Positions 30,472-50,468 of a DNA stretch of 64,000 nt are shown here, one piece after another. The DNA comes from Paraglaciecola polaris LMG 21857 (GTDB taxonomy: Bacteria; Pseudomonadota; Gammaproteobacteria; Enterobacterales; Alteromonadaceae), in NCBI RefSeq assembly GCF_000315055.1, contig NZ_BAER01000015.1, forward strand, positions 1 to 64,000, given 5' to 3'. Below the pieces are notes generated by a model, which saw nothing but the letters and a program-made list of their open reading frames with translations, did no database searches and was not told the DNA's origin. Numbering within the stretch: position 1 is the first letter of the stretch; each line of letters opens with the position of its first letter. Position numbers and translations under genes: made by a program.

Positions 30472-30484
30472 CGTAAATAACTAT

Positions 30485-30640: not shown

Positions 30641-30651
30641 TAGCGGCGCAG

Positions 30652-30680
30652 ACATTACAAACACTTGCCGGTAAAGTCAA
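30652..30680 (-). promoter_or_regulatory. Promoter for the riboswitch-btuB transcript
   Basis: On the minus strand TTGACT (30680-30675), a 17-base spacer and TAATGT (30657-30652) make a good sigma-70 promoter. It would start transcription near 30645, a few bases before the riboswitch. Confidence 0.65.
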
Positions 30681-30820: not shown

Positions 30821-32117
30821 GACACCCATAATAAAAATTGAATCAAAAACATACCAGATTCAAGATGAAGGACCCACCTTTACTATTCCGTTCGCTAAGA
30901 TAGAGACCGAACGGCATTTAATGTTCTTATCTATTTCATTTTGAGTCTTGTGGGGGTGTTAAATGAATGACTGGAAGGGCTCACACACATTAAGAATCAT
31001 CGAAAATGTACGTCGATATAGGAATTTTTTACAATAGGTTTTTAGTGAAAATTACGCGCGCTTGAGTAACACCTTTGCCTTACCCATTCCCCTAATACGT
31101 TGATGGTGCGTATGGCGTTTAAACACATTCATCATCAGTTCTGCACCAGCGGCACAATAAAAGTGTTTTTCGAACTCAGTGGTTAAGGTCAGCCATTGCG
31201 CTGAATTTAAGCCTAATCGATCTAGAATGGTGCTTTGGCAGTTATCGATATTTCCGACTTTGTCGTTAAGAATACAACGGCCTGTGGTTTGTACTAACTC
31301 GCAATAGTCTTCTAGCGAATAGACAATACCCTTAGGCATATTTTGTTTAAAATTACCCACAAAAGGCATTAAATTTTTTGGTTGTACTTGATTGTTTTTG
31401 ATTGCGTGAACGCGTTTTTTAATACTGGTATGTTTTGATGTTTCTGGTGTTTTTTCAACTTTTGCTCGAATGGGGTTCAAGTCGACATAGACCATACACG
31501 CGATCAACGCACTTTCGTCTAACAATGCTTGGGATTTAAAACGTCCTTCCCAGAATCGACCTGTGCAGCCGTCCTCTTTATTTGCTTCTCTTGCAATATA
31601 TTCATTGGTTTCACGCATGAACCAACTGATGTCATACAAACGTTTGCGGTACTGCTCAACCGTTTCATCAAAGGTAACTAGTTCGCCAGCGGTGAGTCTA
31701 TCGCCGGCCACGTATTTTTGGGTTAGCAATGACCCCTTATGTAACTTTAGGTAGCGGCGCAATACCTCCGTGGTAGGTAAACTTTCAGCTAACGCTTTGT
31801 CTACATGCAGCACTACATGAGTATGATTAGCCATTACTGCATAAGCACAAATATCTATCGTAAAGGCTGTGGATAGGAAGAGTAACCGCTTTTCTACCCA
31901 TTCTCGGCGATGTTCGTAACTTTGGCCGGAATATTTATCAACACCACATAAGAATGAACGGCGGACGCACCGTGAAATACAGTGATAGTAGGGAGTATCA
32001 ATTAAGCTGACTTGGCTTTTTCTAGGTTGAGGCATAACGCATATACCCGATTATAAATAAAACACCTTACAAGCTTAGGACAGATTAGAAAATGAGGTGA
32101 ATTTTATCATGGGTGTC
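30821..32117 (-). mobile_element. RAYT-type element with terminal inverted repeats
   Basis: The transposase gene is flanked by GACACCCATAATAAAAATT (30821-30839) and, in inverted orientation, a near copy (32100-32117: AATTTTATCATGGGTGTC). The arms match at 17 of about 19 positions allowing one base gap. They enclose about 1.3 kb holding only the transposase, a 200-base 3' region and a 7-bp hairpin (CCGTTCG 30888-30894, CGAACGG 30908-30914). No target-site duplication is evident, as expected for tyrosine HUH enzymes. The element lies just upstream of the btuB promoter and abuts the end of the gene at 32144. Confidence 0.6.
31052..32035 (-). CDS. REP-associated tyrosine transposase (RAYT, Y1_Tnp family)
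   Basis: This 327-residue protein is an IS200-like HUH-Y1 transposase of the RAYT group. It begins 'MPQPRKSQVSLIDTPYYHCISRCVRRSFLCG', followed by 'SYEHRREWVEKRLLFLSTAF', and has the metal-binding HUH motif 'NHTHVVLHV' near residue 70, the 'FMRETNEYIAREANKEDGCTG'-type segment with catalytic Tyr candidates and 'RFWEGRFKSQALLDESAL', all typical. Residues 190-327 form an extra basic domain. RAYTs cut and join single-stranded DNA at short palindromic repeats. Reading frame appears intact. It sits inside inverted repeats given in the separate element entry. Start ATG 32035 matches the family N-terminus; the ribosome site is weak. Confidence 0.88.
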   Translation of the reverse strand: MPQPRKSQVSLIDTPYYHCISRCVRRSFLCGVDKYSGQSYEHRREWVEKRLLFLSTAFTIDICAYAVMANHTHVVLHVDKALAESLPTTEVLRRYLKLHKGSLLTQKYVAGDRLTAGELVTFDETVEQYRKRLYDISWFMRETNEYIAREANKEDGCTGRFWEGRFKSQALLDESALIACMVYVDLNPIRAKVEKTPETSKHTSIKKRVHAIKNNQVQPKNLMPFVGNFKQNMPKGIVYSLEDYCELVQTTGRCILNDKVGNIDNCQSTILDRLGLNSAQWLTLTTEFEKHFYCAAGAELMMNVFKRHTHHQRIRGMGKAKVLLKRA

Positions 32118-33584: not shown

Positions 33585-34075
33585 ACAAGGCACTCATGCA
33601 TTAAGGCCAAGAGAATCGGTCACATCAACTCAGTATTATTGGTCATTTTTGTGAGTATTCGCGTCTTGCTGATGAAGAGAGCCGTTATGTAAACGTTATC
33701 TAGACACCCATAACATTCAATGCAAAAGTGGAGGCTATAATAGGCATTACTTTGAGCGCGGCGCTACACAAATTGACTGGTACTTATTAAAAGCCGCTCG
33801 CTGCTATCCCTGGTGAGCAGCCCTTCGATTATCTGTGCAATACGGGGTATTTAGCATGCCAATACCGCAATAGGCACAACACCTTGCCTGATTGATCCAG
33901 CACTTTGCTTGGTAAATTTTCATCAATTAATTTATTTGCACATAGATATACCCACAACGCTATGGGAAAGCGCTTCCATATTGGGCATTGATTTAATGTT
34001 GTTCTTTTGATGGTTAAAAAAACGTTAAAAAAGGTTGTTTTTATGTTTAATTAACATTAGATTAACCAATAATAT
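33585..34075. other. Long leader/intergenic DNA upstream of the mannanase gene
   Basis: About 490 bases without a convincing gene. It contains a copy of GACACCCATAA (33703-33713) identical to the first 11 bases of the nearby RAYT element end, a small hairpin GGTATT/AATACC near 33846, and the palindromic site listed at 33962. No frame above 60 codons is seen. Confidence 0.45.
33962..33979. promoter_or_regulatory. Candidate second LacI-family-type operator
   Basis: ATGGGAAAGCGCTTCCAT is a near-palindrome with an AAGCGCTT centre, the form bound by LacI-family sugar regulators and CelR-like proteins. It differs from the AACCGGTT sites of this locus and is about 110 bases upstream of the first of them, so another regulator might act on the mannanase promoter. 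Confidence 0.35.
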
Positions 34076-34087
34076 GAAACCGGTTCA
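34076..34087. promoter_or_regulatory. LacI-family operator, upstream copy at the mannanase promoter
   Basis: GAAACCGGTTCA matches the locus consensus TGAACCGGTTCA at 10 of 12 bases, with the right half exact. Its centre is 54 bp from the second copy. Confidence 0.65.
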
Positions 34088-34129
34088 CTTTGCGCACTAT
34101 GTGATTCCGGTTTTTTTAGAGAAATAAAA

Positions 34130-34141
34130 TGAACCGGTTCA
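34130..34141. promoter_or_regulatory. LacI-family operator, exact copy at the mannanase promoter
   Basis: TGAACCGGTTCA, a perfect 12-base palindrome, 120 bases before the mannanase start. The same 12 bases recur at 44809 and 46035, next to and on both sides of the LacI gene at 44841-45845. Confidence 0.8.
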
Positions 34142-34260
34142 TTTTTGTTTGATGCGCAATTACCTAGTCAGGAAACATGCTTAACACACGGCATAGACGC
34201 AGTCGGTAATTCCTTTAATAGAACGAATAAATAAAAAGCAAAATTGAGGTAAGAGTCCTT

Positions 34261-37200
34261 ATGTTTAATCAAACTAATTCATTATCACGTTGCGTATTGG
34301 GCGTATCCGTCGCCCTTGGGTTAAGTGGTTGCTTAGGAGGCGAAAGCCTAAATACGGAATCGGCAACGTATGTACCTGAGTCGCGTCCACTTAACGTTAT
34401 TGCCCCGAGCGATATGGAAGTTAAGCCGGGTGATGATGTCACGCTTTCAGGCCGGTTAGTGGGCACCACTGATGGACAAACCATTGTTTGGAGTCAAGTC
34501 AGAGGCACAGCAGTCACCATTACTGACCCAACCGTTGCAACGTTAACTTTTTCAATCCCGGATTCCATTCGCTCAGACAAGCTGGTTTTTCAAATTAGTG
34601 CGTTAAACGCCGATGGTAGTGCCGCGACCGATGAGTCTGGCGCTGCGATTGTGGACACAGTTGAAATTACCGTGTTCGATCCAGATTCTGTGATTACCTT
34701 GGACGTAAGTGCAGACAGCGCTACCTTAAATGGCGCGACCCTGGTTGTTGAGGGCGATGATATGTTCGTCGCGGGTGCGAACAACAATACCCATACAGCA
34801 GATATCAATCCAGGTATGTCGGTGACTTTCAATATCGACGACCAAGTCGGCTTTTATACCTTAAATGTGCGTTATTTGATCCCCACCGACTACGGCGGAA
34901 AAATGGCTGCCGCTATCGTAAACGGCGTGACCTACGATTTTGAATTCAGTGCTACGGGCCAGTGGAAAGAGCTGCGCATTGGGGTAGTTAAACTAGCTGA
35001 AGGCAACAACACCATCGAAATAGGCGGTGGTTGGAATTACTACCGTATCGACGGCATTTCACTTATTCCTGCAGCGGCTCCGGCGGAGCCTTTAGCGGTC
35101 GCACCGACCTTAGTCAATGCCAATGCCAGTGACGAAGCGCTAGCGCTAATGACCTTGTTAACAGAGCACTATGCTAAGGCGACTTTGTCTGGGCAAACTG
35201 AGTTCCCGCGTAAAGTTGACGATGATTTTCCGCTTACTGAAACCAATAAGATAGTTCAAGCCACAGGTGACGATGCCCCAGCTATCGTGGCGTTCGATTT
35301 CATGAACTATTCCGCTTCGTATGCCGGTGTTGATGGCAGCGCTGACGGCTTAACTGAGGCTATGTTAGCAGCGCACAACAGTCGAAATGTTATCTTGTCT
35401 GGGTTATTTCATTGGCGAGCGCCTAGCGGTAATACGGGCACAGGGGATGGCAGCTTCTATACCGACAGTACGACTTTTGATTTTGCCGCCGCCTTAGCGG
35501 ATACAGATAGTAGCGAGTATGCCGCATTATTAGCCGATATCGACACAGTCGCCACTGAGCTTAAAAAGCTTGCTGATGCTGGGGTGCCAGTACTTTGGCG
35601 GCCATTGCATGAAGCCGAAGGTGGCTGGTTTTGGTGGGGCGCACAAGGTGCAACTGAATATAAAAAATTATGGACATTGATGTACCAACGTATGACCGAT
35701 GTGCATGGTTTAAATAACCTTATTTGGGTGTTTACCCACACGGATGGGCTATCAGAAGATTGGTACCCAGGGGATGAGTACGTCGATATTGTTGGGTTTG
35801 ACGGTTACGGCGAGCCAAAGAATGACGACACGTTAACGTTCACTAGTCAGTATTCCACGCTTAAAGGGCGATACGACGGCAAGAAGCTGGTGGCATTAAC
35901 AGAAACGGGCACCATTCCTGACGTGTCCTTGATGCACGAGCAAAATGCTTGGTGGTCATTTTTCATTACTTGGAATTCTGAAAGCTGGAACAGTGACTCA
36001 ATCATAGGCCCACAAGGTGCGGATGCCGCAGAAATTGATGCTAACTACGCCTACGACGGCCTGATCAATTTAGCTGATTTACCTGGTGGGCGCGAAAAAA
36101 TCAGTGGCACATTTGCCAACTTTGAAGCGGATGTATACGGCTGGGAAGCACAGTTAAACTGGGCACCCACTGATGGCATTAAAACCAGTACGGCATGGGC
36201 TGCTAGCGGACAAAACGCGCTTTCACTGACTAAGGATATGACCCAAGCTAGTGCCTTGGACAATGTCGTATTTCAAACCTACCCAACAAATGGCCTAGAT
36301 GTAACCGGCATTAGTGCATTAACTATCAAAGTGAATGCCCTTAACGCGGGGACAAACGTTAACGCACATATCTTTTTTAAAGCCCCGGATGGCGTTGAAA
36401 GCTGGCCTGATGCCGTGGCAGTCGCTGCTGGTGGCACTGAGCTAACGATTGACACATCAGAGATCGATTTGATTACAGGTTTAGGTGTGCGCTTTCAAGG
36501 ATTAGACGGCACCGCGACTGAGGCCCAGTACCTTATTGATGATATACGCCTCGATGGTCGCAGTATTTATGATTTTGAGCCTGAGTCCATGGGCTGGGCG
36601 GCGCAGGTGAATTGGAGTAATACGTCAGGTATTACCTTGTCTCGGGATTGGGCAGATGACGGCGCACAATCCTTGGTCTTTGTAAAAGATTTAGCCTCTT
36701 TGGGGGCGTCCGAAAATATCGTTATGCAAACGTATCCTCAAGGCGGCATCAATGTGGATGGGAACTCAACGCTGACGATGTATGCGTATACGCAAGATTC
36801 GGGGGTGGCTACCGATGCGCATATTTTCTTTAAAGCACCGGATGGTGTTGAAAGCTGGCCTGACGCAGTAGCGGTGGGCGAAGATGGGGTTGAACTCACA
36901 ATTGATGTGTCCGAAATAAACCGTATCGATGGCTTAGGTGTGCGTTTTAACTCGGTTGATAGCAGTGCAAGTGAAGCCAAATTTTATATTGATAATATTC
37001 AGGTGGACGGTGCCACAATCGCCAGCTTTGAGGACACTCAAGGCTTTGAATTACAAGTCAACTGGGCGCCGGTATCTGGTTTACAGCGTTCGACTGAGTG
37101 GATGGCGAGTGGTGATTACTCCTTGGCTGGTGTGGTGTCAATTTCCACTGGCGATGAGGTGGTCATGCAGGCGTATCCCGAAGGTGGCTTGCTGCTTGGC

Positions 37201-37452
37201 GATGATGTCAGCACATTAACCCTCACTGCGTATGTGCAAAATGCCAGTAGCACGGTGACGGCTAAGTTATGGGCGAAAGATAAAGATGGCGCATGGCGAG
37301 ATGCAGGTGCGGTGCCCATGACTGCCCAAGGTGTGCAACTGAGTTTGGAGATTGCCGATTTGACTGAAATTCAGGGATTTGGCGTGCAGTTTCAAGGATT
37401 AAGCGAAACTGACGGGCCGTTCTTTATCGATGATGTCGCGTTTAACGAGTAA
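34261..37452 (+). CDS. GH26 endo-beta-1,4-mannanase lipoprotein with CBM35-like and three C-terminal binding modules
   Basis: The 1063-residue enzyme starts at ATG 34261 behind GAGGTAAGAG. A lipobox LSGC puts the anchored Cys at 24. Residues 40-140 are an Ig-like stretch, 140-272 a CBM35-like domain, and about 285-605 the GH26 catalytic domain. Here 'PVLWRPLHEAEGGWFWWG' has the acid/base Glu451 and 'LVALTETG' the nucleophile Glu548. Three similar modules of about 145 residues follow (615-765, 766-915, 916-1063), each with an FE..GWE/FE..QVNW start and an IDD/IDN end; they resemble CBM27-type mannan-binding jelly rolls. The enzyme would cut beta-mannan at the cell surface. Two LacI-type operators precede it and the TonB receptor follows 132 bases on, forming an outer-membrane capture unit. 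Confidence 0.9.
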   Translation: MFNQTNSLSRCVLGVSVALGLSGCLGGESLNTESATYVPESRPLNVIAPSDMEVKPGDDVTLSGRLVGTTDGQTIVWSQVRGTAVTITDPTVATLTFSIPDSIRSDKLVFQISALNADGSAATDESGAAIVDTVEITVFDPDSVITLDVSADSATLNGATLVVEGDDMFVAGANNNTHTADINPGMSVTFNIDDQVGFYTLNVRYLIPTDYGGKMAAAIVNGVTYDFEFSATGQWKELRIGVVKLAEGNNTIEIGGGWNYYRIDGISLIPAAAPAEPLAVAPTLVNANASDEALALMTLLTEHYAKATLSGQTEFPRKVDDDFPLTETNKIVQATGDDAPAIVAFDFMNYSASYAGVDGSADGLTEAMLAAHNSRNVILSGLFHWRAPSGNTGTGDGSFYTDSTTFDFAAALADTDSSEYAALLADIDTVATELKKLADAGVPVLWRPLHEAEGGWFWWGAQGATEYKKLWTLMYQRMTDVHGLNNLIWVFTHTDGLSEDWYPGDEYVDIVGFDGYGEPKNDDTLTFTSQYSTLKGRYDGKKLVALTETGTIPDVSLMHEQNAWWSFFITWNSESWNSDSIIGPQGADAAEIDANYAYDGLINLADLPGGREKISGTFANFEADVYGWEAQLNWAPTDGIKTSTAWAASGQNALSLTKDMTQASALDNVVFQTYPTNGLDVTGISALTIKVNALNAGTNVNAHIFFKAPDGVESWPDAVAVAAGGTELTIDTSEIDLITGLGVRFQGLDGTATEAQYLIDDIRLDGRSIYDFEPESMGWAAQVNWSNTSGITLSRDWADDGAQSLVFVKDLASLGASENIVMQTYPQGGINVDGNSTLTMYAYTQDSGVATDAHIFFKAPDGVESWPDAVAVGEDGVELTIDVSEINRIDGLGVRFNSVDSSASEAKFYIDNIQVDGATIASFEDTQGFELQVNWAPVSGLQRSTEWMASGDYSLAGVVSISTGDEVVMQAYPEGGLLLGDDVSTLTLTAYVQNASSTVTAKLWAKDKDGAWRDAGAVPMTAQGVQLSLEIADLTEIQGFGVQFQGLSETDGPFFIDDVAFNE

Positions 37453-37460
37453 GCACGAAT

Positions 37461-37489
37461 ACCGCTGACGGATCGGCTTCCGTAGCGGT
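37461..37489 (+). other. Intercistronic hairpin between mannanase and TonB receptor
   Basis: ACCGCT-G-ACGG and CCGT-AGCGGT pair as a 10-bp stem with one bulge and an 8-base loop, just after the mannanase stop. There is no T-run. It may stabilise or partly end the mannanase mRNA. Confidence 0.5.
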
Positions 37490-37584
37490 GTAGAGATAAC
37501 AGTAGGCGCGCCTTAGTACACGAGGCGTGTTGATTTGCACAGCCAACGGGTGTGCCTATGAATTCAGATGTTTAAGGATCTTTT

Positions 37585-40500
37585 ATGAAACACATAAACC
37601 ACACAAAACGCGGTTTCTCAAAGCAAAAATTAGCCATATGCGTGGGGTTAGGCTTGTTAAATTCGTCATTTTCTTTGTATGCACAAAGCGTGGATGCCAC
37701 TGACGGCCAAGAAGGGGATTCCCTTGAAGTGATTGAAGTACGTGGCTTAAAAAGCTCATTAATTCAGTCAATGAACAACAAGCGGTTTTCCAATACGATT
37801 ACTGATTCGATTACGGCAACGGATATCGGTAAATTACCCGATGTTACCATAGCCGATTCACTGCAACGCATAACAGGTGTGCAGATAAACCGCTCCGGCG
37901 GAGAAGGCACATCAGTTAATATCCGTGGTGTAGGGCAGGTCGGCACAACCTTAAATGGCGAGCAAATGTTGTCAGCGAGTGCTGTGACCACAGTACAGCC
38001 TAATTTTACCGATATACCGTCCACTATGGTGTCGGGCTTAGATGTGTATAAATCTCGTGAGGCGAAACAGATTTCATCGGGTACGTCGGGTGTGATCGAT
38101 CTTAAAACTTATCGTCCATTCAAACTTGACGAAGGTTTGACCGTTAATGCCAAAGCCGAGATCACTGATGGCTCCATGGGGTCTGAAACTGATGAGCTGG
38201 TATCTGCCTTTTTTGGCTATAACAAAGATAGCGATTTTGGTTTTACCTTAAACGTCTCTGTATCGAATAAAAATCTAGCGGACTATGTTATTGGCTCAAC
38301 TGGCAGTGACTGGGGGTTTGCCGCGACCGAAGCATCAACCTTTGCCCAAGATAATGTGGATGCCAACAGTAATGGCAGCACGGACGATGTGTTTTATGCG
38401 TTTCAGGGGCATCAAGCGACCAATCAGTATATTGCCCGGGATCGGGTGGGGGTCAACAGTTCATTTCAATGGCAAGTCGCAGATCGTGTGGAGCTAGTAG
38501 CCGATGTTTTTTACACCCAAATGGATGAGCTGCAAACCCAAGCTGGTTTTATCGCAGCGCAAGCATGGCAAGGGGTAACCGGCTGGTTTACGCCAAGCGC
38601 TAACGGTTTTACCGAACACCCAAATCAAAGCAAAAACCCAGACGGCACTGTGACTACCCTACCTGGGAGTTTCAATTCATTCAGTGCCGGAGTGCTGCAA
38701 TCCAGACGTAATATGGCGCACTCTGAAGCAAACGCTATCGACCGTGAAGCACTCAATAGCAATTTAGAAGTGAATTTTGAACTAACGGATAACCTGTCGG
38801 GCTCGGTTCGTTGGGTGCATGGTAAAGCCACTGACGACAATGCGTTAAGTGTGGTGGACTCTTATATCAACAGTGGCTCTCAAGTCGGTGCGACCTATAA
38901 AGGTCAAGGCGGTGTCGCATTAAGTGATGTGAACCCTTGGGGTTATGATGGGCAGTTTGCGCAATTACCAGATGGCACTGAAGTGCAGGACTTCACTATG
39001 ATCCCCATTGGTATTGCGTACACTGGCTCTGAACAGGTTTGGGATTTGCCCACAACACAAATCATTGACGGGCAAGAGGTCAATGAAGTCTTTGGCAGTA
39101 ATATTTCGCGCTACGCAGCGACCTCAGCGAACTTAACAGGGGCTCAAAAAGAAGCGGAGCTAGATGTGCTGCGTGTCGACGGTAAGTATGCGTTTGATGA
39201 TCTGGGCCCGATTATTTCGACCGAGTTTGGCCTTCGTTACGGTAAGCGTGATGTGAGTCAGCTATCCTGGATTGGCGGAGTTGCACGGACTAATCAATAC
39301 GGTGATGCATTTTTATCACGCTGGAAAGACAGCGCAAGCCAGGCACCTGAAACACTAGAATCCTTCATCGATCCTATTTCGTTCGAATCGTTGGATCAAA
39401 TGGGATTGATCACCCAGATCAGCGATTTTCAAGGCGCTAGCGGTTTAGGCTCATTATACTTTGTTGATCCTGACAAAATGTCTGACCCATTAGCGTGGCA
39501 CAATCAGGTTTATGGGCAGAATATCCAGTCTCCCGATGGTGCTAATTCTTACGATTTAGAGGAAAAAAATAGCGAAGCCTACGTGCAGTTAAATCTAGAT
39601 GGCGAAATTGCCGAAATGTCTTATCGCGGCAATGTGGGATTGCGTTACGTTAAAACTGAATTAGACATTAATCAGTCAGAATTAGGCACAAGTGGCAGCG
39701 CTACGTATAACGGGGTGTCGTATATTTTATCCGGAGCCTTGGGTATGGTGCCGCCGACGTCAGCGTTACTTAATACTCAGCGTGAATATTCGGATGTATT
39801 GCCGTCGGTTAACTTATCGTTGAATTTGACGGACGAGCAAATCTTACGTTTCTCGTACAGTAAAACCGTTACCCCTCATGATACCAACAACCTTGCTGGT
39901 GGCATCAATGTGACTCGGGTTTTGGCCTGCGATCTACAACAGCCTGATGGCACCAGTATATTCTGTGCCACCCAAGCGACGCAGCAGGGGAATCCTCAAC
40001 TCAATCCTTGGCGTTCGACTAATTATGACGTGTCGTACGAGTGGTATTTTAGTGAATCCGGTATGTTAAGCGTGGCGGCATTCTACATCGACATTGAATC
40101 TTTCATCGGCAATACCACAGTGCAACTTGCTCTTGAAGATAGCGATGGTGTGGTGCGCGGTTATAACCTTGAAACAGGCGAATTTACTGGTCTGGTGCCT
40201 ACGTCGACTAAGGGTAATGTTGATGGTGGAAGTGTGAAAGGGATCGAGATTGGTTATCAACAAGGTTTTGATTTTCTTGACGGTGTTTGGCAGAACTTCG
40301 GCGTAACAGCCAATTATACTTTTTCGCCAAGTGAAAGCGGTGAAACTGATTACTACGGCGAAAGCACACCTATGTTAGATAACTCAGAGCATCAAGCGAA
40401 CGTGGCGTTATGGTATGAAGACGAAGGTCTGCAAGCACGTATTGCCGCAAATTACCGCAGTAAAACCTTTGTATCGGTTCGTCGTTTGGGTAGTTATGAA

Positions 40501-40698
40501 CTGGCTAAATTTATCGAGCCAACCTTGTATCTTGATGCGTCAGTGAGTTACGACTTCAATGAACATTTGTCTGTGTCATTACAAGGCACCAATTTAACGG
40601 AAGAAACCCGCGATACCTACCTGCAATGGGAGGATTTAATTGATAAGCGTTTTATCAATGAGCGTCGCTTTACTTTGGGTGCGCAATACCGTTTTTAA
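37585..40698 (+). CDS. TonB-dependent receptor, probable manno-oligosaccharide uptake
   Basis: This 1037-residue receptor has a signal peptide ending near 'SLYAQ', a TonB-box region 'LEVIEVRGLKSSLIQSMNNK', a plug ('TATDIGKLPDVTIADSLQRI', 'TSVNIRGVG', 'SGLDVYKSREAKQISSGTSG') and a long barrel closing with 'RRFTLGAQYRF'. The form, with RGLKSSL and SLQRITGVQI, is that of the large carbohydrate-linked TonB receptors of Xanthomonas, Caulobacter and Alteromonas (TonB-Xanth-Caul type). The mannanase gene lies immediately upstream and the LacI-type operators control the pair, so the ligand is probably beta-manno-oligosaccharides. ATG 37585 follows AAGGATC. No SusD-like partner is present, as usual outside Bacteroidetes. 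A strong terminator follows. Confidence 0.9.
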   Translation: MKHINHTKRGFSKQKLAICVGLGLLNSSFSLYAQSVDATDGQEGDSLEVIEVRGLKSSLIQSMNNKRFSNTITDSITATDIGKLPDVTIADSLQRITGVQINRSGGEGTSVNIRGVGQVGTTLNGEQMLSASAVTTVQPNFTDIPSTMVSGLDVYKSREAKQISSGTSGVIDLKTYRPFKLDEGLTVNAKAEITDGSMGSETDELVSAFFGYNKDSDFGFTLNVSVSNKNLADYVIGSTGSDWGFAATEASTFAQDNVDANSNGSTDDVFYAFQGHQATNQYIARDRVGVNSSFQWQVADRVELVADVFYTQMDELQTQAGFIAAQAWQGVTGWFTPSANGFTEHPNQSKNPDGTVTTLPGSFNSFSAGVLQSRRNMAHSEANAIDREALNSNLEVNFELTDNLSGSVRWVHGKATDDNALSVVDSYINSGSQVGATYKGQGGVALSDVNPWGYDGQFAQLPDGTEVQDFTMIPIGIAYTGSEQVWDLPTTQIIDGQEVNEVFGSNISRYAATSANLTGAQKEAELDVLRVDGKYAFDDLGPIISTEFGLRYGKRDVSQLSWIGGVARTNQYGDAFLSRWKDSASQAPETLESFIDPISFESLDQMGLITQISDFQGASGLGSLYFVDPDKMSDPLAWHNQVYGQNIQSPDGANSYDLEEKNSEAYVQLNLDGEIAEMSYRGNVGLRYVKTELDINQSELGTSGSATYNGVSYILSGALGMVPPTSALLNTQREYSDVLPSVNLSLNLTDEQILRFSYSKTVTPHDTNNLAGGINVTRVLACDLQQPDGTSIFCATQATQQGNPQLNPWRSTNYDVSYEWYFSESGMLSVAAFYIDIESFIGNTTVQLALEDSDGVVRGYNLETGEFTGLVPTSTKGNVDGGSVKGIEIGYQQGFDFLDGVWQNFGVTANYTFSPSESGETDYYGESTPMLDNSEHQANVALWYEDEGLQARIAANYRSKTFVSVRRLGSYELAKFIEPTLYLDASVSYDFNEHLSVSLQGTNLTEETRDTYLQWEDLIDKRFINERRFTLGAQYRF

Positions 40699-40726
40699 CT
40701 CTGTGCCATAGCGCCAATACGGTGCT

Positions 40727-40764
40727 AAGCCCCTTTTGACCTTAGGTTAAAAGGGGCTTTTTTA
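40727..40764 (+). terminator. Rho-independent terminator after the TonB receptor
   Basis: AAGCCCCTTTT (40727-40737) pairs with AAAAGGGGCTT (40749-40759) as a perfect 11-bp stem, followed by TTTTT. Confidence 0.92.
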
Positions 40765-41021
40765 TATACTCAATTTATGCATCGTCAGGGGGACAACATC
40801 ATGCACCGCTGTTAATCGGCGCACTTAACCGGTTCGGCTTTTATCATTGTTTGTTCGTGGTTACAGCCTAGGCCACACCGCACAAACTGCTAATTCACGA
40901 TGGCTTTAGCCTCGTGGTCACGCTAACGAAGGCGTGCAGGTTATTCACATACACAGCAAAGGGTATTGTCATGAGTGTGGGCGCCACGGGTTTCAATGGT
41001 TAACAGACTATTCTGACAGGA
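40765..41021. other. Intergenic DNA with one operator-like sequence
   Basis: No gene is seen. TTAACCGGTTCG at 40825-40836 matches the locus operator at 10 of 12 bases but lies between two 3' gene ends and has no promoter next to it, so it may be inert. Confidence 0.35.
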
Positions 41022-41552
41022 TTAACGCGCTGTTTGTGCAATGAATTGCTCAACCGCAGTGCGCAGGGACGCGAAAGCTATTTTGCCTGATGGCACTTGA
41101 TGTAAGGGCCAAAATTCAGCACCGGCAATTTCATTTTTTTGTAACTTGAGGATGGGTTTGTGCGCCAAGGTGGCGACAAAAATCGTATCACAGGTGTGGT
41201 AATTGATATTTTTGTACAGATATTGATTGGGCTGTGAGGTGAAGTATTGCCAATTTTCGATATGAATATCGAGCTCTTCAAGAATTTCCCGGCTAAGGGC
41301 TTGCTCTAAACTTTCACCGTGGTCCACAAAGCCACCGGGTAAATCTAATTGTCCTTTACCCGGTGCATTACCTCGCTTGGTAAGCAGTATCTCATCGTCA
41401 ACCACTATGATGGCTGCTACAGCGGTTGCTGTGTTATGAAAGTAAGTAAATTGGCAATCGGTGCAGTAAAAGCGCGCACCGTCGATAAGCGTGATTGTCG
41501 CGCTTTGGCAATTCGGACAATGACGAAATATATCATGGCAAGGGGACAGCAT
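41022..41552 (-). CDS. NUDIX hydrolase with N-terminal zinc ribbon
   Basis: A 176-residue protein with two CxxC pairs at the N-terminus ('CPNCQS...YCTDCQF') forming a zinc ribbon, then the NUDIX box 'GGFVDHGESLEQALSREILEEL' at about 77-98. The box fits GX5EX7REUXEEXGU except that the final Gly is Asp. NUDIX enzymes hydrolyse nucleoside-diphosphate-linked compounds, with magnesium held by the REXXEE Glu. The zinc-ribbon type resembles NudC-related enzymes but is shorter and lacks the SQPWPFPxS NADH signature, so the substrate is open. It is a single gene not preceded by the LacI-type operator and is probably not part of the mannan regulon. Confidence 0.88.
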   Translation of the reverse strand: MLSPCHDIFRHCPNCQSATITLIDGARFYCTDCQFTYFHNTATAVAAIIVVDDEILLTKRGNAPGKGQLDLPGGFVDHGESLEQALSREILEELDIHIENWQYFTSQPNQYLYKNINYHTCDTIFVATLAHKPILKLQKNEIAGAEFWPLHQVPSGKIAFASLRTAVEQFIAQTAR

Positions 41553-41668
41553 ATAGACTCGCTCTGTGAACTGAAATTAAGGTAAAGGTTGCTGGATAAT
41601 ATACAGAATATTGGGCTTAAGTGCGGTTAACATAACCGTTACGGTGGCATCTAACACCTTGCCCCATG

Positions 41669-41706
41669 AAATGACCTAGCCTGATGAGAGTCAGGCTAGG
41701 TCATTT
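41669..41706 (-). terminator. Long hairpin, terminator of the sulfatase operon
   Basis: AAATGACCTAGCCTGA (41669-41684) and TCAGGCTAGGTCATTT (41691-41706) form a perfect 16-bp stem with a 6-base loop, 8 bases after the sulfatase stop. The T-run is better on the plus strand, so it may stop transcription both ways. Confidence 0.8.
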
Positions 41707-41714
41707 TTCTGAGA

Positions 41715-43559
41715 CTAATAGGGGTTGGAAAACGTCGCCAGCGAAGTCGAATCAGCTTGAGGTACGAATAAAAATCGACGTAAGCCGCTGATGCTAGTCC
41801 ATGGTTTGATACTGTGATTCGCCAATACTTTAAGCGTAAATTCACTATCGTTAGCCGTCAGATTAACACTGCCGATAAGTTGATTTTGTTGACCATTTAA
41901 AATAGTCGTTATGCGCTGCTGACCAATCTCTACGGCGATTTCTAGACCGGCGCTGTCGGTATTATCCTGTTGAATATAAAGCTGAAATTGACCCGGCTGT
42001 GTGACATTTATAGCGTAACGGGCAAAATCATTGATCTGCTTCAAGTTCGTCAAGTGATGTGGCTTGCTGAGCACATTGCTAGACGTTGCTGCGGGTCCAA
42101 AACCATTGACTAAGCTGGATGTCTGGCCAATGGTATAAATGGGCACGGTGAAGCTATGGGGATCATTTATTATCTGATTAAATTTTTGTGTTAGTTTGTT
42201 GATCATATCCTTAGCGACGACGGGTTTTTCGGACATTATATTGTGGCTTTCCAGCGGATCCCGCTGCATATCAAATAACGCATAGCCGTGTTCTGCCTGA
42301 GGGTACTGGGGCTGATCCTGCGCTGGGTTAAGCAACAGCTTATATTTCTCGGTGCGTAAACCAATAATTTGCTCAGAATAAGTCATGGCAGCTTTGGCTT
42401 TTTTGTCCAGCGGTGTCCATTGGTTGAAGTGATCTAAGGCGACTTTGACATCATGGGAGGCAATATAGGTTTCCCGGCTATTGTCACCTGACATATCCCC
42501 TTGTAAATAATCTAAAAATGGCTGCCCGTCAAAACCCTTGTGTTGGGCCGGCACAGAGGCTTGGGTTAGGGCGATTAAGGTCGGTAATATATCTTTTACA
42601 TCCACATAGCGTTGCACATCATGACTTTGCCAATGTCCTTGCCAACGAATAAAAAGTGGTGACTTGATGCCATTTTGCCAAGACTGGCCTTTATTGCCTT
42701 TTAACTGTGATGGATTGCGCTCTTGCCACTCGCTCTTGAGCATGGCGCCAGCATTACTTGAGTCCCACCAAGGCCCGTTGTCGCTGAGAAAAATAACCAT
42801 GGTGTTGTCGGCTAGATCCAACGTATCTACACGGGCGAGTAGTCGACCGATTTGCTCGTCCATTTCGTTAACCATGCCGTAAAGGTTGGCGATAGCTGGG
42901 CGTAACCCTTGTTTCATCAAGGGCTCGGTAAAGCGCTTGGGGGCTATCCAGGGTTCGTGGGGAGCTAAATAACTCAGATAGGCAAAAAATGGTTGTGACT
43001 GATTGCGCTCAATGAAATCGATGGCGTAATCGGTGACCACTTCTGATACCCATTTGTCGTGGGAGACTTTTTTGCCGTTCAGCCAGCCAAAACTGTTTTG
43101 ATGTTGATACAGTTCTGCATAGTAGCCCTCATCAAAGCCTCGATCCCAGGGGAAATATCCCGCAGTTTTACCTACGTGCCACTTGCCCCAGGTGCCGGTT
43201 TTATAACCAGCATTTTGCAGAATATTAGACATTAAGATTTCATCTTTGGCCATAAAGTCACGGCCGCCATGAACGCCTGATACCCCAGTTTTGTAGGGAT
43301 CCCTGCCACTGAGTAAGGCGGCGCGAGTGGTAGCGCAAACAGGCGTGACGGTAAAGTCATTGAAGCGCACAGCTTGCTCTGCAAGCCGATCAATATTGGG
43401 CGTGCTGATATAAGGATGACCATGGCGAGATAGATCGTCGAAACCGAGATCATCCGCAGTGATCAGAATAATGTTTGGTCGCTGGCCTGAGGTTTCACTG
43501 TGCACTAAGTGACTGAACAGCAAAACACCGATAGCTAAAAAAGGCAGTAACTGTTTCAT
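41715..43559 (-). CDS. Exported sulfatase (S1 family) in the mannan locus
   Basis: The 614-residue protein has a signal peptide (cut near 'LVHSE'), then 'PNIILITADDLGFDDLSRHGHP' with the calcium-binding Asp pair at 36-37. The modified-Cys motif is 'PVCATTRAALLSGRDP' with Cys75 and Arg79; the usual core is C-x-P-x-R or C-x-A-x-R, so Thr at the third place is unusual. 'MVIFLSDNGPWWDSS' supplies further metal ligands. Beyond about residue 480 is an extra beta-rich domain ending 'IKPWTSISGLRRFLFVP', perhaps sugar-binding. It should remove sulfate esters from a polysaccharide in the periplasm or on the surface. ATG 43559 follows AGGAGC. It lies 25 bases after the AGE isomerase gene, in the same operator-controlled unit. 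Confidence 0.88.
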   Translation of the reverse strand: MKQLLPFLAIGVLLFSHLVHSETSGQRPNIILITADDLGFDDLSRHGHPYISTPNIDRLAEQAVRFNDFTVTPVCATTRAALLSGRDPYKTGVSGVHGGRDFMAKDEILMSNILQNAGYKTGTWGKWHVGKTAGYFPWDRGFDEGYYAELYQHQNSFGWLNGKKVSHDKWVSEVVTDYAIDFIERNQSQPFFAYLSYLAPHEPWIAPKRFTEPLMKQGLRPAIANLYGMVNEMDEQIGRLLARVDTLDLADNTMVIFLSDNGPWWDSSNAGAMLKSEWQERNPSQLKGNKGQSWQNGIKSPLFIRWQGHWQSHDVQRYVDVKDILPTLIALTQASVPAQHKGFDGQPFLDYLQGDMSGDNSRETYIASHDVKVALDHFNQWTPLDKKAKAAMTYSEQIIGLRTEKYKLLLNPAQDQPQYPQAEHGYALFDMQRDPLESHNIMSEKPVVAKDMINKLTQKFNQIINDPHSFTVPIYTIGQTSSLVNGFGPAATSSNVLSKPHHLTNLKQINDFARYAINVTQPGQFQLYIQQDNTDSAGLEIAVEIGQQRITTILNGQQNQLIGSVNLTANDSEFTLKVLANHSIKPWTSISGLRRFLFVPQADSTSLATFSNPY

Positions 43560-43584
43560 CTTTGCGCTCCTATTTTGAGGTTAT

Positions 43585-44751
43585 TTACAGATATTGTATG
43601 GCTTCAGCGTGGGCCATGAGCAGATGATAAAGCGTACTGGCAGGGGCTGAGGCGTTAATGACTTGATTGTCACTGTTTAATTGGTCCACGTACAATGCAG
43701 GATGTTGCGGGTTCACAAAATGCGTGAGTAAATTTTCGATAGCGATGCGAGCATCATCTAAATAAGGCTCGGGATTGGGTTGGGTTCGTGCCATCGCGAG
43801 ACTGGCTTTTATCCATTCGGTCATTGGCCAGCAACGTTTTGTTTGCGCAGATTGTCCACTTTTCAGATCGACCTGATCAAATAACAAGCGCTGGTTGCCA
43901 TTGGTCGTCGACAGACCTAATGCCAGAGCTTGGCGGTAAAGTGTTAGGCAATAGTGGGCCACAGGTTTGTTGGTATACCTATGATACTCTTGCAGTAACC
44001 ATACCCATTCCATCATGTGACCGGGCTCTACAATATCCCCTTTGGTTTTGGATAACTGCCAATCATGGGTGAAAAACTCGCGTAATACGCCGTGCTCATG
44101 ATCGTAAAATACATTTTCAAACAGGCCGAAAATCTCTCCAGCATAACCCAACCATTTTGCGTCCCGAGTGGCTTGATAAAGGGCTAAAAAAGCTTCAAAT
44201 AAATGCATGTGGGGATTTTGACGACGCCATGGATATTCATAGCTTCCCTCTAACCAGCCTGCAGACGAGCCCTTGAGCTTGGCCTCTATGCTGTCAATAA
44301 GTTGGTTGGCTTTAAACAGGGCATGCAGGTCGTTAAATACCGCGTAGCGCCATGCATAAGCGAGCAGGAAAAAAGCGCAGTCGTACAGATCGACACTGGG
44401 ATCGGCAACCTTGTCTTGGTTATCGAGGATATGACTGAACATGCCGCTATCGTCAATTTGGGCGTGCTGTTGCACAAAGTTGTCTAGTTGATTCACCTTG
44501 TGCATGGCGTCTTTTAGCCAGCCTTGTTTACTCGCATAGGCGCAACAGAACATTTGCCGTGCTTGAACGCGAATACGTTTATTGGCACTAACGTCAGCTT
44601 GTCCATTGGCAAGAAACCCTTCAATGGCACTGCCATTAAGCATAAAACCGTTTTCAGCCCAATAGGGCAGGGTGTGCTTACCCAACCAATTGTCTAATCG
44701 GTGAATGGCAACCTGCAGCGGGCTATTTGAAAATTCAATGGCGTATGACAT
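43585..44751 (-). CDS. AGE-family sugar isomerase, probable D-mannose isomerase
   Basis: The 388-residue (alpha/alpha)6-barrel protein belongs to the N-acylglucosamine 2-epimerase superfamily. Segments 'RIRVQARQMFCCAYAS', 'YPWRRQNPHMHLFEAFLALY', 'IVEPGHMMEWVWLLQEY' and 'KRCWPMTEWIKA' match the mannose isomerase / YihS side of the family rather than the cellobiose epimerase side. It would convert mannose to fructose in the cytoplasm, the exit of free mannose into glycolysis. ATG 44751 was chosen; a GTG at 44769 lies within the operator. Neither has a ribosome site, and the operator ends three bases before the ATG, so the message may have a very short leader or be weakly translated. The sulfatase gene follows. 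Confidence 0.8.
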   Translation of the reverse strand: MSYAIEFSNSPLQVAIHRLDNWLGKHTLPYWAENGFMLNGSAIEGFLANGQADVSANKRIRVQARQMFCCAYASKQGWLKDAMHKVNQLDNFVQQHAQIDDSGMFSHILDNQDKVADPSVDLYDCAFFLLAYAWRYAVFNDLHALFKANQLIDSIEAKLKGSSAGWLEGSYEYPWRRQNPHMHLFEAFLALYQATRDAKWLGYAGEIFGLFENVFYDHEHGVLREFFTHDWQLSKTKGDIVEPGHMMEWVWLLQEYHRYTNKPVAHYCLTLYRQALALGLSTTNGNQRLLFDQVDLKSGQSAQTKRCWPMTEWIKASLAMARTQPNPEPYLDDARIAIENLLTHFVNPQHPALYVDQLNSDNQVINASAPASTLYHLLMAHAEAIQYL

Positions 44752-44754
44752 ATA

Positions 44755-44766
44755 TGAACCGGTTAA
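44755..44766. promoter_or_regulatory. LacI-family operator at the isomerase-sulfatase start
   Basis: TGAACCGGTTAA matches the consensus at 11 of 12 bases and directly abuts the isomerase start codon. Centre-to-centre distance to the next copy is 54 bp, as at the mannanase promoter. Confidence 0.72.
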
Positions 44767-44808
44767 CACTGTTTATATTAATCTGTGAGGTAAATATCAC
44801 ACAAAAAA

Positions 44809-44820
44809 TGAACCGGTTCA
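44809..44820. promoter_or_regulatory. LacI-family operator, exact copy between lacI-type gene and isomerase
   Basis: TGAACCGGTTCA, exact 12-base palindrome, 21 bases past the regulator stop codon and upstream of the isomerase-sulfatase unit. Confidence 0.8.
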
Positions 44821-44840
44821 ATTTTTACTTTGTAATTTTA

Positions 44841-45845
44841 TTATTTTGTCTTTTCTGTAAAGGCAGAGGTGCTTTCACGAATGATGAATTCATAAGGAAA
44901 AACGTATTCTTTATTTTCTGTGACCTTGCCTTGGATCATATCAAGCAACATTTCTGCTGACTTTTCGCCGATTTTTTCCGCTGGTTGGGCAACGGTGGTA
45001 AGCGTTGGCACGACATATTTAGACACGTCCATGTCATCAAAACCAGTGATTGAGATATCTTGAGGAATACGTAAACCCTTGTCGATAAAGCCTTTCATCG
45101 CCGCTATCGCCATTTCATCGTTCATACAAAAAACCGCACTAGGACGATTTTCCATATGATAAAACTGCTCGGCAGCGCTGATACCCGACCAATAGTTAAA
45201 GTCACCTTCAATCACCAATGATTCATCAAACTCAATACCTTGTGACTCAAGTGCTTGTAAATAACCTTTCATTCGATCCCGAGTATGGGGATTTGTTTTT
45301 AATCCCGAGATAACACCAATGCGTTTATGACCCTGCTGAATCAGGTGCCGTACCACTTTATTGGCTGCGCCGGCGTTATCGATACGTACTGAGCTGTAGG
45401 GCGTACCTTCGCAGCTACTGGCACTGACGGCAAATACACCCGCCTTGGGCAACAGTGAATCATTTTCTTTGTAAGGACGTAGATTGATTACGCCATCGGC
45501 TAGACGAGTTTCAACCATACGAATGAAGTCTTTTTCTTTATTCGATGAATCACGCGTATCCCCCAGTAAAACGTTGTATCCGGCGCGTTGAGCCACGGAT
45601 TCAATGCCGCTAATAACCTTGGCAAAAAACAAGTTGGCTATGTCGGGTACCATGACCACTATGGTGTTGGCCGTGTTGCTGCGAAACTTTTGTGCAAGCA
45701 TGTTGGGCTTGTAATTGAGTTTTAGAATGGCCGCTTCGACCTTTTCTAGATTCTTTTTCGAAACACGCTCTGGATGGCTCAGTGCTTTTGATATTGTGCC
45801 AGTGGATAACCCTGCTTCTTTTGCCACGTCTCTGATGGTTGTCAC
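44841..45845 (-). CDS. LacI-family transcription regulator of the mannan locus
   Basis: The 334-residue protein starts 'MTTIRDVAKEAGLSTGTISKALSHPERVSKKN' with the LacI helix-turn-helix (residues 3-24) and the hinge helix 'MLAQKFRSNTANTIVV' near 49-64. The rest is a periplasmic-binding-protein-like sensor domain ('FFAKVISGIESVAQRAGYNVLLGDT', 'FCMNDEMAIAAMKGF', 'SITGFDDMDVSKYVVPTLTTV'). Such proteins repress and are released by a sugar. The three exact TGAACCGGTTCA palindromes of the window all lie in intergenic DNA of this locus, two of them on either side of this gene, which makes this the likely binding protein. The inducer is probably mannose, mannobiose or a phosphate derivative. Autoregulation is likely because an operator lies in its divergent promoter region. 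Confidence 0.92.
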   Translation of the reverse strand: MTTIRDVAKEAGLSTGTISKALSHPERVSKKNLEKVEAAILKLNYKPNMLAQKFRSNTANTIVVMVPDIANLFFAKVISGIESVAQRAGYNVLLGDTRDSSNKEKDFIRMVETRLADGVINLRPYKENDSLLPKAGVFAVSASSCEGTPYSSVRIDNAGAANKVVRHLIQQGHKRIGVISGLKTNPHTRDRMKGYLQALESQGIEFDESLVIEGDFNYWSGISAAEQFYHMENRPSAVFCMNDEMAIAAMKGFIDKGLRIPQDISITGFDDMDVSKYVVPTLTTVAQPAEKIGEKSAEMLLDMIQGKVTENKEYVFPYEFIIRESTSAFTEKTK

Positions 45846-46034
45846 TATGCTGCCTTTCTAACTGAATAACGGGAAGTTGTTGACCCCTGAGCGCTAAACT
45901 ATCGGCGCTAAGAACATCGCTAACTAATATGGGTTCAGTTTACTTAATCTAGCGTTTAACGCCAGTAAATCCCGTTATTAAAGTCATTTGATATTGGCTA
46001 GTGGTTAATAAAATGGAAAATTTAACTTGATAAA

Positions 46035-46046
46035 TGAACCGGTTCA
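46035..46046. promoter_or_regulatory. LacI-family operator in the divergent regulator/symporter promoter
   Basis: TGAACCGGTTCA, exact copy, 73 bases before the symporter start. A half-matching AATATGGGTTCA (45926-45937) lies 109 bp away, twice the 54-bp spacing, but only its right half fits. Confidence 0.8.
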
Positions 46047-46118
46047 TTTTATGTTGGTGTTATCTGACCACCATCACTAAAAACGTTGTTGCTGTAACGA
46101 CAACAGGAATGCAGATCC

Positions 46119-47984
46119 ATGATCTTATCCGTACTCGATATCTCGATTATTGCCGCTTATTTACTCGCCATTGTGGCGTTGGGGTTATACATCTCTAAAT
46201 CTGCAGGCAAAAACGTGCAAAGCTATTTTTTAGGTGGCAATCAACTCAGATGGCAGTTACTTGGTTTATCCAATGCATCCGGCATGTTCGATATCAGCGG
46301 CACCATGTGGATGGTGTACTTGCTGTTTATTTATGGCCTTAAAAGTGTCTACATACCTTGGTTGTGGCCGAGTTTTAACCAAATATTTCTGATGGTTTTT
46401 CTGTCCATCTGGTTACGTCGCTCGGGTGTGATGACGGGGGCAGAATGGATCCGCTTCCGCTTTGGTGAAAGTAGGGGGGCGACCTTAAGCCATTTTGTGG
46501 TGGTGCTGTTTGCGCTGCTTAGTGTGTTGGGCTTTTTAGCCTATGGTTTTATCGGTATTGGCAAATTTGCCGCCGCTTTTTTACCTTGGGAATTGTCGTT
46601 AGACCCGCGTACCAATGAAATTTATTACGGTTTAATTATGACCGCATTGACCTCAGTTTATGTGGTCAAAGGCGGCATGGTCAGTGTGGTATTCACGGAA
46701 GTACTGCAATTTGTGATCATGACCGTTGCTTGTATCGCCATTGGCATTGTAGCAATGATGAAAGTTTCTCCGCAGATGTTGGCTCAAGTTACGCCAAATG
46801 GCTGGGACAGCCTCGCGTTCGGTTGGAATTTAAGTTTAGACTGGAGTGCCATTCTGGCTCAGGCTAATCAACGCATAATCGAAGATGGTTGGTCGCTGTT
46901 TTCCGTATTTATCATGTTGGTTTTGTTCAAAGGCATACTGCAAAGCATGGCGGGGCCGGCTCCGAATTTTGATATGCAGCGGGTGTTGTCCGCCCGAACC
47001 CCAAGCGAAGCGGCGAAGATGAGCGGCTTTGTGAGCCTAGTGTTATTAGTGCCTCGCTACATGATGATCACAGGTTTGGCGGTCTTGGCCTTGGTCTACT
47101 TTATGCCAGCGTTGAACGCCATGGGACCGGATGTCGACTTCGAGCAAATCTTACCTTTCACCCTAGCTAACTTTATCCCCAGCGGATTGCTGGGTTTGAT
47201 TATCGCCGGTTTGTTAGCCACCTTTATGTCGACCTTTGCGGCGACCACCAACGCCGCACCTGCCTACGTGGTTAATGACATATACCGTCGTTATATCAAT
47301 CCCGATGCGTCTGCCCGAACTTATGTACGAATGAGCTACTTAGTGTCCGTGGTGTTTATTGTGCTTGGTACCGCAATCGGTTTATTTATTCCGTCGCTGA
47401 ACGCCATAGTGTTGTGGTTAGTATCGGCACTTTACGGCGGTTATACCGCGTCTAACTTACTTAAATGGTATTGGTGGCGTTTTAACGGCATGGCGTATTT
47501 CGCCGGAATGTCCGCGGGTATTTTGGCCGCGATACCTATGATGTTCACCGATATATCACCGCTGTATGGCTTCCCATTTATGTTCGCGGCATGTCTAGCA
47601 ACCTGCATTGTGGTCAGTTATATCAGTGCACCGGATGATATTGAAGTCGTTAAGCACTTCTATTTAAAGACACGCCCTTGGGGAATATGGGGACCCATCA
47701 TTGCTGCGGTACAAAAAGACAACCCGAATATCCGTCCAAATACCGAATTCAAGAAAGACTTGGGTAATGTGGTTGTCGGTATTATCTGGCATACCAGCCT
47801 GACCGCGGCACCGATTTTTCTGGTTATTCAACATTGGGGTGGCCTGACCATCGCCACGGGCGTCGCAATTATATCCAGTATTTTACTGAAATATTTCTGG
47901 TGGGATACGTTAAGCGACGAACCGCAAGAGCAACACACTTTGCATCAACCTTCTGTCTATTCTCCTGCTCAGCAGGGGAAGTAA
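46119..47984 (+). CDS. Sodium:solute symporter (SSS family), probable manno-oligosaccharide or mannose importer
   Basis: This 621-residue inner-membrane protein has about 14 membrane segments and the SSS fold: 'YLLAIVALGLYISKSAGKNVQSYFLGGNQLRWQLLGLSNASG' spread over 14-60, 'LAYGFIGIGKFAAAF', 'VKGGMVSVVFTEVLQFVIM', and 'LLATFMSTFAATTNAAPAYVVNDIYRRY' split near 370-395, matching the sodium-site Ser/Thr region. It is related to SGLT-like sugar carriers. It is the first gene of a symporter-GH130-epimerase-GH5 unit: gap 26 bases, then a 4-base overlap, then 62 bases. The LacI-type operator precedes it. It probably moves manno-oligosaccharides from periplasm to cytoplasm, since the two following enzymes act on disaccharides inside the cell. 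Confidence 0.9.
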   Translation: MILSVLDISIIAAYLLAIVALGLYISKSAGKNVQSYFLGGNQLRWQLLGLSNASGMFDISGTMWMVYLLFIYGLKSVYIPWLWPSFNQIFLMVFLSIWLRRSGVMTGAEWIRFRFGESRGATLSHFVVVLFALLSVLGFLAYGFIGIGKFAAAFLPWELSLDPRTNEIYYGLIMTALTSVYVVKGGMVSVVFTEVLQFVIMTVACIAIGIVAMMKVSPQMLAQVTPNGWDSLAFGWNLSLDWSAILAQANQRIIEDGWSLFSVFIMLVLFKGILQSMAGPAPNFDMQRVLSARTPSEAAKMSGFVSLVLLVPRYMMITGLAVLALVYFMPALNAMGPDVDFEQILPFTLANFIPSGLLGLIIAGLLATFMSTFAATTNAAPAYVVNDIYRRYINPDASARTYVRMSYLVSVVFIVLGTAIGLFIPSLNAIVLWLVSALYGGYTASNLLKWYWWRFNGMAYFAGMSAGILAAIPMMFTDISPLYGFPFMFAACLATCIVVSYISAPDDIEVVKHFYLKTRPWGIWGPIIAAVQKDNPNIRPNTEFKKDLGNVVVGIIWHTSLTAAPIFLVIQHWGGLTIATGVAIISSILLKYFWWDTLSDEPQEQHTLHQPSVYSPAQQGK

Positions 47985-48010
47985 CATTATTGCGAACAAG
48001 AGTACTATTT

Positions 48011-50406: not shown

Positions 50407-50468
50407 ACGACTTACTCACAAAGACCGCGTTTATGCCCATCGTTACTATAAAATTTGAGCGGATCATA

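Follow-up and report, generated by a model that had tools for sequence, protein, structure and literature searches.

The window analysed here, a 64,000-nucleotide stretch of Paraglaciecola polaris LMG 21857 (contig NZ_BAER01000015.1, positions 1 to 64,000), carries a beta-mannan gene cluster, and the whole is best explained by a LacI-family repressor, encoded within the cluster, that represses three transcription units through an even, CG-centred palindrome (probability about 0.8). The repressor, probably a dimer, would bind (A-rich)TGAACCGGTTCA(T-rich) at the three units and would presumably be released by a mannan-derived sugar such as mannobiose, mannosylglucose or mannose. The operator of the symporter promoter occupies the spacer between the -35 and -10 elements, and that of the isomerase promoter overlaps a -35-like word; at both, the bound dimer would act by steric block. 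At the mannanase unit transcription would start upstream, and the leader opens with a hairpin and a U-tract followed 27 bp on by a perfect operator. Bound there, the repressor may make the leader terminator effective by stalling polymerase on the U-tract, and the distal half-operator, or the hairpin arm that it forms, may also hinder initiation.

The perfect 12-mer TGAACCGGTTCA was found at 34130, 44809 and 46035, as the first-pass annotation of the window had reported, and the two imperfect copies named there were recovered as well: GAAACCGGTTCA at 34076, with two mismatches, and TGAACCGGTTAA at 44755, with one. Allowing up to two mismatches, the window held eight matches against 2.1 expected. 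That annotation had placed every site in intergenic DNA, which did not hold for 44755-44766, since these positions cover codons 2-5 of isomerase 1 when the open reading frame (ORF) is read from GTG (VLTGS here, MLTGS in P. chathamensis). In the whole genome (5,239,503 bases, 146 contigs) all three perfect copies lay in this cluster, and the reversed control pattern occurred once. At up to one mismatch no excess was seen, the motif giving 19 matches and its reversed control 18. Fifteen one-mismatch matches lay on other contigs, and 14 of them fell inside ORFs of at least 212 codons and were set aside as regulon members; the single intergenic one (C124:114614), the same variant as at 44755, lies between genes for an alpha-amylase and a major facilitator superfamily transporter. 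A two-mismatch site at 40825, between two converging 3' ends, was taken as chance.

The regulator beside these sites matched LacI, Peripla_BP_3 and Peripla_BP_1 in Pfam, giving it the N-terminal helix-turn-helix and effector domain of the LacI family, and it matched 57 distinct PDB sequences at E<=1e-20. The even palindromic operator with a central CG beside its own gene is likewise a mark of that family. Relatives were taken from a scan of 84,980 species genomes, which returned 118; the best 80 of the 118 were kept, giving 78 loci, and the closest among these 80 was Paraglaciecola chathamensis S18K6 (94%). Among the proteins read, those of at least about 53% identity split by recognition helix into STGT[IV]SK ('TGK', the class of the window) and S[TIV]ATVSR ('AR'), and a palindrome search around the AR genes returned TGTAACCGGTTACA-like words in place of the window's palindrome. 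Operator class was called in 81 rows, none dropped, from sites with no more than one mismatch in the 450 bp flanking lacI on each side. The TGAACC type (TGAACCGGTTCA) was present in 16 of 18 TGK rows, with two having none and zero the TGTAACC type, whereas the TGTAACC type (TGTAACCGGTTACA) was present in 40 of 63 AR rows, with 22 having none, one both and zero the TGAACC type only. Thus no crossed pairing of helix and operator was seen. Twelve of the 22 AR rows without a site are titled Sphingomonas, and three (L152, L153 and L166) have TGTAACC-type sites within 10 kb. In loci that share the gene cluster, matching positions at the symporter and isomerase promoters carried one operator type (for example in L120, L121, L125 and L132) or the other (in L136 and L137).

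In a tree of residues 61 onwards (the first 60 left out; a quick method, with several long branches and an outgroup not on one side of a branch), the 18 TGK rows fell on one side of one branch among the AR rows, with a Shimodaira-Hasegawa-like approximate likelihood ratio test (SH-aLRT) value of 98. This tree required one helix change and, counting rows with one type or the other, one operator change. The recognition helix (T/I/V, A, R to T, G, K) and the operators (TGTAACC to TGAACC half-sites) appear to have switched together once, in one ancestor, and the tie through helix class supports, by comparison, the palindrome as the operator of the adjacent LacI. We infer that this LacI binds TGAACCGGTTCA and is released by a sugar. 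A total of 196 genomes was searched, the own genome included, of which 150 had some LacI match at 1e-40; TGK status was read from the fetched proteins and not from every LacI of every genome. On that reading, 11 genomes (the own included) have a TGK LacI and hold 35 perfect copies of the palindrome, and the remaining 185 hold 30, in 23 genomes. The old and new helix and operator types coexist in P. arctica A3R16, two Neiella and BrNp21-10. The cluster would offer a natural case of a repressor whose reading helix and operators, at several promoters, were rewritten together, and, if binding is confirmed, a repressor and operator ready for use as an orthogonal pair, beyond the group to which the published analysis of the LacI code was applied.

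Three further loci may be noted. In L126, from P. arctica A3R16, where a TGK paralogue is encoded, positions 1650-2350 hold four TGTAACC-like sites (up to two mismatches) and no TGK-type site; they precede a receptor gene that lies 8 kb from the paralogue. At 9855-9892 of L143, beside an AR LacI, one TGTAACC-type and one TGAACC-type site, each with one mismatch, stand 26 bp apart; the same genome also encodes a TGK protein (L127), and dual control of this promoter is possible. The LacI of L177, in a record titled Bacillus sp. 2B10, groups inside Sphingomonas, and the record may be misnamed or contaminated.

The elements at the symporter and isomerase promoters are as follows.
46027 to 46055 (+): symporter promoter TTGATA-N17-TATGTT, the sole match in 44700-46150, with 3.7 expected by chance
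46035 to 46046 (+): perfect operator, entirely within the 17-bp spacer of the symporter promoter (motif scan, promoter scan)
44809 to 44820 (-): perfect operator of the isomerase-sulfatase unit, whose left half gives the -35-like TTGAAC (by eye)
44755 to 44766 (-): one-mismatch operator-like site in isomerase 1 codons 2-5 (if GTG), seen among the loci displayed only in the two closest relatives
Near 44788, between the two isomerase sites, a CRP-like word TGTGA-N8-TCACA was noticed by eye and rejected, its spacing being 8 instead of 6 and its right half altered in P. chathamensis.

The mannanase unit was compared across 18 TGK promoters, namely that of the window and 17 others, from Paraglaciecola, Alteromonas, Aestuariibacter, Thalassotalea, Pseudoalteromonas, Neiella, Colwellia, Psychrosphaera, two unclassified Alteromonadaceae and others. 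The TGK loci L126 and L130 have no GH26 promoter of their own, and the P. arctica GH26 fragment L203, at a contig end, was left uncounted beside L125; the P. arctica copy of the promoter reaches a contig end inside the operator. In the window the elements are as follows.
34035 to 34063 (+): proposed mannanase promoter P1, TTGTTT-N17-TAGATT, with a start near 34070 (comparative)
34076 to 34087 (+): distal operator-like site with two mismatches, of which AAACCGG at 34077-34083 is the 5' arm of the leader hairpin (motif scan, folding)
34107 to 34117 (+): CCGGTTTTTTT, the 3' arm of the hairpin and the U-tract, a proposed intrinsic terminator (folding; conserved T columns)
34130 to 34141 (+): perfect proximal operator, 27 bp beyond the 3' CCGG of the hairpin, the proposed roadblock site (motif scan, spacing)

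A TTGnnn-N17-TAnnnT word stood at the corresponding place in 18/18 promoters, compared with a mean of 0.8 and a maximum of 5 in base-shuffles and with 0-4 for other spacers. It puts the predicted start 47-71 bp upstream of the operator. The 3' arm of the hairpin, CCGG (TCGG in two), paired with an upstream CCGG in all 18. Folded from the predicted start, the leader hairpins gave dG values of -8.6 to -21.1 and a mean z of -3.1 against dinucleotide shuffles (n=18); a first folding of nine promoters had given z of -1.3 to -4.7. A run of 5-8 Ts followed the 3' arm in every promoter, with an A between CGG and the T-run in two, and five T columns were invariant across 15 aligned promoters. The distance from the 3' arm to the perfect operator was 27 bp in 17 of the 18 and 28 bp in Psychrosphaera; it was first noticed in nine promoters and then held in six more and in two of three further ones. 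Among 395 genomes of the family, seven carried the combination CGGTTTTT-N12-15-operator, each a single time and each together with a TGK LacI, and none carried its reversed control. Departures of the distal site from the operator (TGAA to TAAA or GAAA) lengthened the stem by 3-4 extra outer pairs in 12 of 18, and in BrNp21-10 the 5' arm was a second ACCGG, separate from a perfect distal operator. Rfam, at gathering scores, returned no family at the cluster promoters. A TAAAAT-like sigma-70 -10 word between the U-tract and the operator was set aside, having no matching -35 and being absent in several promoters (by eye). An imperfect palindrome, GGGAAAGCGCTTCC, lies upstream of the promoter at 33960-33980 and looks similar to sites bound by other members of the LacI family; a search around the mannanase promoters of the two closest relatives did not turn up the word AAGCGCTT.

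Pairing of the sites was a further claim of the first-pass annotation, which saw both window pairs (34076/34130 and 44755/44809) at 54 bp and proposed that a LacI tetramer binds each pair on one DNA face or with a loop. The two distances were borne out, at 5.1 turns, and the mannanase pair is 54 bp in two close relatives also. In those same relatives, however, the isomerase pair is 67 bp apart (with the same words in P. chathamensis), and six other TGK loci displayed have a single site at the isomerase promoter, so the two 54s of the window do not reflect one rule. At the mannanase promoter two sites were present in 16 of 18, with spacings of 46-73 bp (54-57 in 13), counting distal sites with up to four mismatches that coincide with the hairpin arm or, in the case of BrNp21-10, precede it. 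Three of these 16 distal sites had 3-4 mismatches, and the two Neiella promoters had no distal site with fewer than four, bringing to 5/18 the promoters in which the distal site shows 3-4 mismatches; often degenerate as an operator, it is yet kept as the 5' arm of the hairpin. The protein argues in the same direction. The tetramerisation helix of LacI occupies approximately residues 340-357, and the alignment with E. coli LacI stops at LacI residue 332, query 329 of 334, leaving five residues beyond; the C-terminal tetramer helix is therefore absent, and the repressor is probably dimeric. The spacings in relatives speak against a same-face 54-bp pairing, and a tetramer bound to both sites is very improbable. 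Still less credible is that the palindromes belong to another regulator or arose by chance, given that operator class agrees with the recognition helix of the adjacent LacI and that perfect copies are exclusive to the cluster genome-wide. The earlier observation was thus partly confirmed and its interpretation partly supported: the definition of a marine beta-mannan regulon from sequence, by an operator before the mannanase-receptor, isomerase-sulfatase and symporter units, is supported by the comparative evidence.

What the hairpin does at the mannanase unit is a separate matter. It is plausible, at rather less than even odds in our estimation, that the repressor gates an intrinsic terminator: a LacI roadblock would hold polymerase on the U-tract and make a leaky terminator tight, inducer would restore read-through, and the hairpin arms would have been built from operator sequence. 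With a polymerase footprint of about 18-20 bp ahead of the active site, and with a LacI-family dimer occupying some 12 bp to either side of its centre, a polymerase halted by the roadblock would come to rest close to the U-tract. To our knowledge such gating has not been described for LacI proteins, and no report of a LacI roadblock coupled to a hairpin was recognised in a literature search judged by titles and abstract openings. If true, the arrangement would show how the spacing of a DNA-bound repressor can put an intrinsic terminator under its control. The hairpin and U-tract could instead be an ordinary terminator or attenuator of the leader, constitutive and lowering mannanase expression, with a spacing inherited without function; this would account for a stem, U-tract and promoter word conserved as such. 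We consider it unlikely, because the 27-28 bp was held in 18/18 promoters despite poorly conserved A-rich bases between the T-run and the operator, while the nearest ACCGG arm upstream lay anywhere from 20 to 32 bp away. Somewhat more doubtful is a reading in which CCGGTTTTTTT serves as a further operator, a weak one, bound cooperatively with the proximal one at a fixed 27 bp, and no terminator is involved. The spacing is indeed fixed, the element of the AR promoter L215 is closer to an operator, differing from the 14-mer at two positions and carrying a short T-run, and that of L132 reads TGAACCGGTT. On the other side, the left arm of the element agreed with the operator in 20 of 72 positions, close to the chance level, the CA of an operator is replaced by a T-run, and 27 bp, about 2.6 turns, is not among the peaks of 13, 22 and 32 bp given for LacI-family site pairs in section 9 of Ravcheev et al. 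(PMC4052901).

Several findings weigh against the repressor model preferred here or against parts of it. The TTG-N17-TA word was picked after 15 of the 18 promoters had been viewed, and two of the three new ones are near-identical. A position weight matrix scan of 15 promoters ranked P1 top in six and within the top three in 13, with that of the window outside the top three, and a strict scan of 33900-34300, in which only loops of 3-8 were allowed, listed neither a promoter nor a terminator. The argument for P1 is comparative. Such a hairpin is missing from two of the three AR mannanase promoters; the third, L215, has one, together with a CCGG 27 bp upstream, but no more than four Ts. The 27-bp spacing may therefore predate the U-tract, and tandem operators may be the origin. 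The switch of helix and operator is a single event in the tree, so the rows are not independent and do not amount to 56 separate cases. Two TGK proteins also fit poorly: all sites within 10 kb of L126, the second one of P. arctica, are of the TGTAACC type (an AR LacI, L142, lies about 30 kb away on the same contig), and L130 has no site near lacI and no mannan cluster in its 21 kb, with one perfect site 4 kb off.

The genes of the cluster are as follows.
34261 to 37452 (+): GH26 endo-mannanase with CBM35 and mannanase galactose-binding-like domains (Pfam; PDB)
37585 to 40698 (+): TonB-dependent receptor (Pfam)
41022 to 41552 (-): Nudix hydrolase (Pfam)
41715 to 43559 (-): sulfatase (Pfam)
43585 to 44769 (-): AGE/GlcNAc 2-epimerase-family isomerase 1, start at GTG 44769 or ATG 44754 (Pfam)
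44841 to 45845 (-): LacI-family repressor, 334 aa, recognition helix STGTISK (Pfam, PDB, helix reading)
46119 to 47984 (+): sodium:solute symporter (Pfam)
48005 to 49189 (+): GH130 mannosylglucose phosphorylase (PDB, E 7e-172 to 4-O-beta-D-mannosyl-D-glucose phosphorylase)
49186 to 50406 (+): cellobiose/mannobiose 2-epimerase-like protein, the second AGE protein (PDB, E 1.5e-91 to cellobiose 2-epimerase)
50460 to 51959 (+): GH5 mannanase-like protein (Pfam; PDB)
Isomerase 1 had no PDB relative at 1e-10. The order GH5-AGE-GH130-symporter-lacI-AGE-sulfatase recurs in several relatives' loci. The sulfatase, matched in 11 of the 44 relatives' loci displayed (weakly, 31-37%, in L126), hints at sulfated mannan among the substrates. 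The identities of the GH130 and second AGE proteins fit the mannobiose epimerisation-phosphorolysis pathway, in which a mannobiose epimerase and a mannosylglucose phosphorylase act as in Bacteroides fragilis. As there, genes for a GH26 enzyme, a mannobiose 2-epimerase-like protein and a GH130 mannosylglucose phosphorylase are grouped; unlike there, the cluster has a sodium symporter, a TonB receptor, a sulfatase and LacI control.

Elsewhere in the window, a cobalamin riboswitch (30474-30653, minus strand; Rfam RF00174, 52.6 bits) lies just upstream of a TonB-dependent receptor at 28424-30301, which is probably BtuB-like. A 327-aa protein at 31052-32035 (minus strand) had no Pfam match at 1e-5, and we take it, by eye, to resemble a REP-associated transposase.

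Compared with the LacI code, the two clades behave differently. As described in the part of Camas et al. 2010 (PMC2978694) that was consulted, which analyses the TVSR group, amino acids AA-15/AA-16 are linked to nucleotides NT-5/NT-4 and AA-20 to NT-6. The AR sister clade fits this code, with R20 and G at NT-6. The TGK clade falls outside the group, the window protein having T-I-S-K instead of T-V-S-R at AA-17 to AA-20, and combines K20 with T at NT-6 and T,G at 15,16 with G,A at NT-5,NT-4. In this numbering the switch runs from T/I/V-A-R with G-6 T-5 A-4 to T-G-K with T-6 G-5 A-4, and that of the operator can alternatively be viewed as the loss of one T per half-site. In the main text of the literature searched, neither the 12-mer nor the 14-mer word occurred. 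The system resembles ManR-type local regulons, as excerpted from Ravcheev et al. 2014 (PMC4052901) and from the account of Shewanella manR-I/II (PMC2996990), in having a local LacI-family regulator beside its targets, an even CG-centred palindrome, sites mostly upstream of starts, and mannoside genes; this likeness rests on descriptions of regulons, with the operator words of published ManR groups outside the comparison. Roadblocking by LacI and release of the stalled polymerase are established, in E. coli mainly through Mfd, according to the sections seen of Hao et al. 2014 (PMC4132739) and a review (PMC10310618). The proposed mannanase arrangement is like those roadblocks in that a repressor on an operator downstream of the start would stall polymerase, and unlike them in that a terminator-like hairpin and U-tract stand at a fixed distance upstream of the operator.

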